Shown piece by piece: positions 51,039-52,995 of a DNA stretch of 64,000 bases. The notes beneath the pieces are model-generated. The model ran no database searches. It saw only the letters and a program-made list of their open reading frames with translations, and was not told the origin of the DNA. Within the stretch, counting starts at the first letter, position 1. Each line of letters starts with the position of its first letter. Both the position numbers and the translations under genes were made by a program. The DNA comes from Acidimicrobiales bacterium (GTDB lineage Bacteria; Actinomycetota; Acidimicrobiia; Acidimicrobiales; MedAcidi-G1): the NCBI GenBank assembly GCA_014237715.1, contig JAAZZG010000003.1:124001-188000 (forward strand), written 5' to 3'.

Positions 51039-51968
51039 GTGCTGGCCATCGATGTGGGTGGCACCAAGTTGGCTGCGGGTCTGGTGGACGGCGATGGTCG
51101 GCTGATCGACCAACGCCAGAGGGAAACCGTCGCGTTTGCCGGTGTTGGCGCTGATCCTGCACCTCTGGACGGTGGACATGCGATCGACGGCACGTTCGAA
51201 GCGCTCTGGTCCATTGTCGAACCCTTCGTCGACCGCGCTGATGCGGTCGGCGTGGGATGCGGGGGCCCGATGGTGGGTGGGCCGGAAGACCGACGAATGT
51301 CCCCGTTGCACATTCCCCTGTGGGACGACCTTCCGTTGGCGGGCCTGTTGGCCGAGCGGTCCGGGCTGGACGTCGTGGTCGACAATGACGCCAAGGCGTT
51401 GGCCCTTGGTGAGGGTTGGTGCGGGGCGGCGGCCGGCCACCGGAACTTCCTGGCCATGGTCGTGTCGACCGGCGTCGGTGGGGGGATCGTGCTCGACGGT
51501 CGTCTGGTCGACGGCGCCACCGGCAACGCTGGTCATATCGGCCACCTCGTGGTGGATCCTGATGGCCCGGACTGTGCCTGCGGGTCCCGCGGTTGCCTCG
51601 AGGCGGTGGCGTCGGGGACGGCGATCGCCCTGGCTACCGGTGCGCCCGCTACCGAGGCCTCGGACGAGATTCGTCGTCGGGCCGGGATGATGGTGGGTCG
51701 GGGAGTAGCCGACGTGGTGAACCTGCTCGACCTCCCGTTGGTCGTGGTGGCCGGTTCGGTGGCCCTCGGCTTCGGCGTTCCCTTCTTCGATGCAGCCGAG
51801 GAGGAGCTTCGTGCAAGGTGTGGCCTGCCATTCACCCGGGGCGCACGCATCGTGCCGGCCGGCCTGGGGGCCGACGGTCCGTTGGTGGGGGCGGCGGCAG
51901 TGTGGCACCACCACCGTGGTAGCGGGGTACTTCCCGCGGACCCTTCCGTGGGGGAGGATCGGAACTGA
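51039..51968 (+). CDS. ROK-family sugar kinase (glucokinase-like)
   Basis: 309 residues, GTG start. ATP-binding LAIDVGGTKLAAGLVD, catalytic Asp in VVDNDAKALALGE, phosphate motif VSTGVGGGIVLDG, the zinc-binding ROK signature CACGSRGCLEA with the preceding GHIGH, and the second phosphate site VVVAGSVALG. Lacks a DNA-binding domain, so it is an enzyme and not a ROK repressor. Glucose is the usual substrate; others cannot be excluded. Confidence 0.9.
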   Translation: MLAIDVGGTKLAAGLVDGDGRLIDQRQRETVAFAGVGADPAPLDGGHAIDGTFEALWSIVEPFVDRADAVGVGCGGPMVGGPEDRRMSPLHIPLWDDLPLAGLLAERSGLDVVVDNDAKALALGEGWCGAAAGHRNFLAMVVSTGVGGGIVLDGRLVDGATGNAGHIGHLVVDPDGPDCACGSRGCLEAVASGTAIALATGAPATEASDEIRRRAGMMVGRGVADVVNLLDLPLVVVAGSVALGFGVPFFDAAEEELRARCGLPFTRGARIVPAGLGADGPLVGAAAVWHHHRGSGVLPADPSVGEDRN

Positions 51969-52216
51969 TGGACGTTCGGTGGTTTGCACGGATGGCGGTG
52001 GCGGTGGCACTGCGCCCCGTCTTATGGGGCGTGGCCCTTCGGCAGGCTCACCGTCTGGCTGGTCGGGGCTGGTGGCGGCGTCCCCCGTTCCTTCCGGTAC
52101 CGGCTCGGGCCTATGCGGCCTTTCGGGCCACCACTCAGTACGGCGATCCGACGGCGGCGCCAACGGTTGACGACGTCATTGTGTGGCTGCAATGGGCTCG
52201 ACGCTTCCCGGGTTGA
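51968..52216 (+). CDS. small conserved protein of unknown function
   Basis: 82 residues. The start overlaps the kinase stop by one base (TGATG). Basic and Trp/Arg-rich, with VALRPVLWGVALRQAHRLAGRGWWRRPPFLPVPARAYAAFR as a conserved-looking core; one possible amphipathic or membrane-surface helix at the N-terminus. The same small gene is commonly beside ROK kinases and lipoate-ligase genes near the dcw cluster in related bacteria, as far as I recall. No function known. Confidence 0.75.
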   Translation: MDVRWFARMAVAVALRPVLWGVALRQAHRLAGRGWWRRPPFLPVPARAYAAFRATTQYGDPTAAPTVDDVIVWLQWARRFPG

Positions 52217-52241
52217 CCCGGGAGCCGGTTCGGACGTCTAG

Positions 52242-52285
52242 ATGGCTGAGTGGTTGGATTGCCGGATGACTGGATGACTGGATGA
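52242..52285 (+). promoter_or_regulatory. relay of overlapping upstream mini-ORFs before the lipoate ligase gene
   Basis: An 8-nt unit GGATGACT/C is repeated three times (52264-52271, 52272-52279, 52280-52287). Each unit holds an ATG whose next stop TGA lies in the following unit as ATGA: ATG-ACT-GGA-TGA at 52266-52277, again at 52274-52285, ending on the real start at 52282. An ATG at 52242 reads in frame into the first of these (11 codons). Ribosomes could pass from stop to start in steps of 8 nt. Confidence 0.5.
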
Positions 52286-52995
52286 CCGGATGGAACGTGC
52301 GTTGGCCGGAGGGCTCGGTGGCCGACCGACACGGACCGGTTGGAGAGATCTCCGAGCGCTCGGTACTGCGTCACCGAGTGTCCCGTTCGACTGTGGTGCT
52401 GGGGAGCGGCCAACGGAACCTTTCGGGGTTGGTTGATCGAGCAGCCGCGAATGGTCTGGACGTGGTTCGACGCCGGTCAGGCGGGGGAGCGGTCCTGTTG
52501 CAACACGAGGGAGTCCTCTGGGTCGACGTTCTGGTGCCTCGGAACGATCCCTTGTGGGATGACGACGTGGGACGGTCATCCATTTGGTTGGGGGCCACCT
52601 GGTGCGAAGCGTTGGCCGTCTCGGGCGTGGCGGCCGACGTCCATAGGGGGTCGTTTATTTGCGGGCTGGCCGGCCGGGCCGTGTGCTTCGTGGGCCGGGC
52701 CGCCGGTGAGGTGGTGTCCGAAGGTCGCAAGGTGGCGGGGATAAGCCAGCGTCGGGACCGGAGCGGAGCCCGGTTCCAGTGTGCGGTTCTGCTGGGGGCC
52801 GATGCCGCGGCGCGGTCGGTGGCCCCTCTGGTCGATCTGCTCGGCCTGGTACCCCGTGCGGAGGTGCTCGCCGAGGTCGAGGCCACCGTTTCCGGGGTGG
52901 TGATTCCCGGCGTGGCCGATGTTGATACTGCGGGTGTTGCTGCGGCCGATCACCTCTTCGATGCCTTCATGGAGGCTATTTCCTCTACCGGTTGA
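52282..52995 (+). CDS. lplA: lipoate-protein ligase A-like (BPL/LPL catalytic domain)
   Basis: 237 residues. The biotin/lipoate ligase fold is shown by RRRSGGGAVLL, GVLWVDVLVPRNDPLW and the catalytic lysine loop GRKVAGISQRRDR. It is shorter than E. coli LplA (338) and lacks the C-terminal accessory domain, like many actinobacterial forms. It would attach lipoate to the E2 subunits such as the one encoded at 28668-29942. ATG 52282 lies inside an 8-nt tandem repeat. Confidence 0.82.
   Translation: MTGWNVRWPEGSVADRHGPVGEISERSVLRHRVSRSTVVLGSGQRNLSGLVDRAAANGLDVVRRRSGGGAVLLQHEGVLWVDVLVPRNDPLWDDDVGRSSIWLGATWCEALAVSGVAADVHRGSFICGLAGRAVCFVGRAAGEVVSEGRKVAGISQRRDRSGARFQCAVLLGADAAARSVAPLVDLLGLVPRAEVLAEVEATVSGVVIPGVADVDTAGVAAADHLFDAFMEAISSTG

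Follow-up and report, generated by a model that had tools for sequence, protein, structure and literature searches.

The mycobacterial interspersed repetitive units (MIRU) have a unit length of about 77–101 nt. They are inserted at start codons, where an ORF of the repeat is coupled to the gene at a spacing of −4 nt (Supply et al. 1997, cited in PMC12548453), and the passage on them in that 2025 review of translational coupling describes host gene expression as thought to be little changed by the insertion. The same −4 nt junction is used in termination–reinitiation coupling via ATGA overlaps (PMC6728339, PMC10666635), which in Escherichia coli and Haloferax is almost abolished at a distance of about 20 nt (Huber et al. 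2023, PMC10666635). Single upstream minigenes can also raise downstream translation, as at axe-txe, where the stop codon of the minigene mg2 lies 15 nt before the toxin start, without overlap (PMC8708949). In the simple-sequence-repeat phase variation of Haemophilus, changes in repeat copy number shift the frame or the promoter spacing and thereby switch expression (PMC2651432).

The window analysed here, a 64 000 nt stretch of DNA from a marine actinobacterium, contains three 8 nt tandem units that each carry an ATG, the last of which is the start codon of a gene of the lipoate/octanoate protein ligase family. The features of this junction, all on the forward strand, are:

51968–52216, +: 82 aa ORF with a TGA stop at 52214–52216; C-termini aligned in orthologs, strong Shine–Dalgarno pairing (−11.2 kcal/mol)
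52206–52223 (ends approximate), +: G+C-rich hairpin over the stop codon of the 82 aa ORF, core CCCGGG-UUGA-CCCGGG; MFE −48.5 and z −2.47 for 52196–52310
52241–52264, +: degenerate 8 nt units GATGGCTG AGTGGTTG GATTGCCG, seen in the sequence and in a 24 nt period array that TRF places at 52241–52293
52242–52277, +: 11-codon mini-ORF MAEWLDCRMTG-stop, its stop overlapping the ATG at 52274; in the ORF listing, with a weak Shine–Dalgarno-like site (−6.9 kcal/mol)
52250–52285, +: alternative 11-codon mini-ORF VVGLPDDWMTG-stop with a GTG start, its stop overlapping the ligase ATG; in the ORF listing
52265–52288, +: 8 nt units GATGACTG GATGACTG GATGACCG, from the sequence, TRF, shuffles and the ORF listing
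52266–52277, +: mini-ORF MTG-stop, its stop overlapping the ATG at 52274, nested in frame in the 52242–52277 ORF; in the ORF listing
52274–52285, +: mini-ORF MTG-stop, its stop overlapping the ligase ATG at 52282; in the ORF listing
52282–52995, +: lipoate/octanoate protein ligase family gene, 237 aa; Pfam LplA-B_cat, orthologs with the same start

The ligase product contains the Pfam lipoyl ligase A/B catalytic domain LplA-B_cat (8.8e-14), and NCBIfam equivalogs fall far under their cut-offs. The gene lies between the conserved 82 aa ORF and mraZ. As there is an in-frame stop at 52267 with no other standard start between it and 52282, and the homologs align from residues 1–4 with the Trp at residue 4 conserved, the start at 52282 is well supported. 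The 82 aa ORF, which has no Pfam or NCBIfam match, is kept genus-wide between a ROK kinase gene and the ligase gene.

From 52241 to 52296 the sequence reads GATGGCTG AGTGGTTG GATTGCCG GATGACTG GATGACTG GATGACCG GATGGAAC, with GATGGAAC directly 3′ of the array, and TRF returned a period of 8 with 3.6 copies at 52264–52292. The degenerate units are probably older than the three near-perfect ones. In the latter, ATGA occurs at 52266, 52274 and 52282, and the three ATGs are in three different frames. Both MTG mini-ORFs and the 11-codon ORF stop on the next ATG, and at 52274 and 52282 the stop and start overlap by 4 nt, one of the two spacings (−4 or −1 nt) of a termination–reinitiation coupled junction. 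The sequence and the ORF listing thus agree with the preliminary description, which had reported three units with ATGA links, two MTG ORFs and one 11-residue ORF, with the ATGs cycling through all frames. The ORF with the GTG start at 52250 is additional to that description, as is a fourth unit-like ATG, at 52290, which is inside the ligase gene and out of frame. The pattern ATGAN4ATGAN4ATGA has a single occurrence in the window, where dinucleotide shuffles give 0.01 on average, and a single one in the 2.33 Mb draft genome; the array is the sole 8 nt triple with at most one mismatch in the window.

Where ATGA recurs at a period of 2 mod 3, the ORF from each copy stops on the next copy, and the last ATG receives every upstream start at any copy number. 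With a period of 1 mod 3 the ORF stops on the second next ATGA, and with a multiple of 3 it never stops on a copy. As an ATGA unit with a 2 mod 3 period gives the relay by arithmetic, the relay is not a separate coincidence, and the same arithmetic bears out the earlier proposal that a change in copy number, which in that proposal might tune reinitiation, would be frame-neutral.

Like MIRU, the array is a repeat at a start codon, with its ORF overlapping the gene by −4 nt. MIRU are much longer, apparently mobile and interspersed, whereas here an 8 nt unit, itself start-codon sequence, is repeated at one place and gives 3-codon ORFs. When 52190–52300 was compared with the genome, no second copy was found, other matches being pieces of approximately 14–25 nt. 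A 32 nt match in contig 11 was rejected as a second copy; it is short and chance-like, and lies in another sequence context. Ordinary ATGA coupling has the same −4 nt junction (PMC6728339, PMC10666635) but normally only one, between two genes, whereas here mini-ORFs link several of them in a row. Leader minigenes and ribosome-delivering upstream ORFs that are translated (axe-txe mg2, PMC8708949; PMC12548453) share with the array a very short ORF in cis and a dependence on stop-to-start distance, but leader minigenes are single and not tandemly repeated. Simple-sequence-repeat phase variation likewise has a tandem repeat at or near the start codon, with octanucleotide units known there, but in the array the last ATG keeps its frame at any copy number. 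In the open-licence literature searched, no paper describing relays of start-codon microsatellites was found. The statement that no case of this form had been described was nevertheless too strong, as MIRU couple a mini-ORF at −4 nt (in the review's account of them, PMC12548453) and further small-unit cases were found (see below). The idea is already described through the coupled mini-ORFs of MIRU, with a long mobile unit.

The ligase ATG has no Shine–Dalgarno sequence. Its best anti-Shine–Dalgarno pairing is −4.5 kcal/mol, close to the random median of −4.6, while the value for mraZ is −15.3, and this makes the stop–start hand-over that had been proposed plausible. Pairing at the first relay ATG (52242) is weak (−6.9 kcal/mol). 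Between the stop of the 82 aa ORF (52216) and this ATG there is a 25 nt gap, and the hairpin intervenes as well. As the gap exceeds the distance of about 20 nt at which coupling is almost abolished (PMC10666635), the relay at this locus is left open on its upstream side. The loop of the hairpin contains the stop codon of the 82 aa ORF. A promoter or terminator within the leader was considered and rejected, as a sigma-70 consensus scan of 51900–52400 returned no promoter-like site and a consensus scan of the leader returned no terminator-like site.

The nearest orthologs, in genomes G002 and G016, are 89% identical and their junction reads CCCGGGTGACTGA|ATGACCGGATGG. The array is absent from both, and the stop of the upstream ORF lies immediately next to the ligase ATG, which is identical in position. 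They also lack the hairpin, a feature of the window's lineage only, and they carry a degenerate, near-duplicate 8 nt seed, TGACTGAA/TGACCGGA. In G014 (81%), an 11 nt unit, GGATGAGTGGC, is present twice and gives a 4-codon ORF (MSGG-stop) that ends on ATGA, with the first ATG 4 nt past the upstream stop. Farther relatives have short gaps or TGATG or GTGA overlaps and no array. Copy number therefore differs by species, from one degenerate unit in G002 and G016 and two 11 nt units in G014 to three near-perfect and further older units in the window. As the orthologs keep the start and the seed without the array, the array is lineage-specific while the ligase start codon is not, and the slippage seed appears to predate the expansion. 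A special function of the array at the ligase is not supported, because the orthologs use the same ATG without it. The preliminary description had named, as incompatible with its reading, homologs that lack the repeat and start well inside the ORF. The repeat is indeed absent and the start is the same ATG, a result that in substance goes against that reading.

The same form was found at other genes in a scan of 296 Acidimicrobiia genomes for ATGA occurring three times at a period of 8, in which each locus was then read and the proteins were checked against Pfam, and among arrays of period 11 and period 5. In the following list L051 came from a separate scan of 17 genomes, and gene names that go beyond Pfam are our reading of the sequences.

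L051: SDR gene, 8 nt ATGA array at the gene start
L082: FGGY kinase gene, 8 nt array at the gene start
L153 (genome G333): gene for a GlpK-like FGGY protein, 8 nt array at the gene start, closed chain
L086: MR/MLE enzyme gene, 8 nt array of 8 units at the gene start
L162: MR/MLE enzyme gene, 8 nt array of 4 units at the gene start
L065: XdhC protein gene, 8 nt array at the gene start
L079: gene for a PMT_2-like protein, 8 nt array at the gene start
L132 (genome G019): gene for a mycothione-reductase-like protein, 11 nt array of 5 units at the gene start, closed chain
L141: O-methyltransferase gene, 11 nt array at the gene start
L205: aldo/keto reductase gene, 5 nt array before the gene

Chains that are closed from the stop of an upstream ORF via every link to the gene were found at L132, L153 and L083, the last with non-identical units. 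At L132 and L153 the geometry is that of an upstream gene delivering ribosomes to the junction. In congeners of the L132 genome the array is absent and the two genes are approximately 7 nt apart. The relay form recurs independently at other genes. Genes of the MR/MLE (enolase) superfamily start with an 8 nt ATGA array in genomes of two families (L086 and L162). At L066, positions 1501–1564 consist of eight copies of ATGAGTGG, with no evident downstream gene start.

In the Acidimicrobiia sample, 8 of the 23 tandem ATGA arrays with a period of 8 or 11 are at gene starts (leaving out the window's own locus and L051), versus 1 of 43 with a period of 7 or 10 (Fisher p=0.0006), where gene-start calls were partly manual and post hoc. 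Counting two arrays that lie 30–60 nt upstream of a start, the latter figure becomes 3/43 (p=0.012). For this sample the counts suggest a frame filter, by which a duplicated start would persist only if its period is 2 mod 3. In viral contigs, counted automatically with a threshold of at least four ATGA, the difference is in the opposite direction (9/166 for period 8/11 versus 24/190 for 7/10, p=0.027). A general frame filter, backed by the one sample and contradicted by the other, is not claimed, and the relay period is no general rule because in the viral contigs 7/10 nt arrays are at least as frequent at gene starts as 8/11 nt arrays. No relative of the ligase was found in the viral contigs. 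At L363, L408, L425 and L464, all in viral contigs, long ORFs begin with heptad arrays (ATGAxxx, at least four units); their relays skip every second unit, and one wrong-frame start is left open.

The explanation that we favour, and consider rather probable, is that the array is a start region grown by strand slippage, a tolerated and near-neutral spacer that would carry ribosomes to the ligase; slippage as the cause, the order of gain and loss, actual reinitiation and near-neutrality are what we infer from the sequences. The ancestral junction between the 82 aa ORF and the ligase would have been short and probably coupled, with the near-duplicate 8-mer TGACTGrA/TGACCGGA already present, and slippage would then have multiplied the unit in the window's lineage. 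A ribosome entering at 52242, 52250 or 52266, or at the ligase ATG itself, is envisaged; one that started on any upstream copy would terminate on the next and could reinitiate there, and traffic from every copy would reach the ligase ATG in the right frame at any copy number. The array would be tolerated because ATGA at a period of 8 (2 mod 3) always hands over to the right frame. It looks like a tolerated start-site stutter rather than a dedicated switch, because close relatives lack it and similar chains occur at other genes. It may have a cost to expression, as peptidyl-tRNA drop-off can take ribosomes off three-codon ORFs; the minigene literature, as treated in PMC8708949, describes very short ORFs as potentially toxic or ribosome-losing.

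Alternatively, the array could be an inert 5′ untranslated leader, with de novo ribosome binding at the ligase ATG or a transcript start just upstream, and mini-ORFs that are never translated. The orthologs that start at the same ATG without an array, the ease with which three-residue ORFs arise incidentally and the weak pairing at the first relay ATG are consistent with this, and we regard it as possible but doubtful: any ribosomes loading in the leader would meet four ATGs within 24 nt, in competition with the ligase start, which lacks a Shine–Dalgarno sequence, no promoter-like site was found by the sigma-70 scan, and the chains at the GlpK-like and mycothione-reductase-like genes run from upstream stop to downstream start. 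Copy number could also be a selected, variable dial, with a fixed share of ribosomes lost per unit, so that slippage tunes the ligase while the frame is kept. The unequal unit numbers between the window, G002/G016 and G014 fit this, as does the arithmetic that preserves the frame, but lipoate ligase, GlpK and mycothione reductase are housekeeping-type genes and atypical as contingency loci, and the upstream units are degenerate, indicating that the array is not kept pure; such a dial seems unlikely. Least of all do we expect that the ligase operon is regulated by a leader peptide or an attenuator (e.g. lipoate- or translation-sensing) in which the repeat is incidental. The 11-codon leader ORF and the stability of the local fold (z −2.47) speak for this, but the nearest orthologs conserve neither that ORF nor the hairpin, and no terminator-like site was found. 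A broader version of the favoured explanation, in which start-codon tandem repeats are frame-proof relays at operon junctions that arise by recurrent slippage, bridge distances that would break coupling and grade output by copy number, is improbable.

Should ribosomes travel along such arrays, start-codon slippage would include a class of frame-safe outcomes (ATGA at a period of 2 mod 3), and the intergenic distance could grow without uncoupling the genes. The natural arrays, of 2 to 13 units, and their array-less congeners are ready constructs for measuring how much is lost at each reinitiation step and how short an ORF can be and still allow reinitiation, both of which are disputed in the coupling literature (PMC10666635).

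Two other readings of the leader were set aside. A pseudo-tRNA at 52240–52256, which resembles the 5′ part of a tRNA-Ser/Leu, was rejected, as ARAGORN finds none and the genome matches are no commoner than those of a reversed control. Acyl-CoA dehydrogenase-derived filler at 52214–52238 was left as chance or filler; these 25 nt match PGAGSDV-type codons in the acyl-CoA dehydrogenase-like genes of several congeners.
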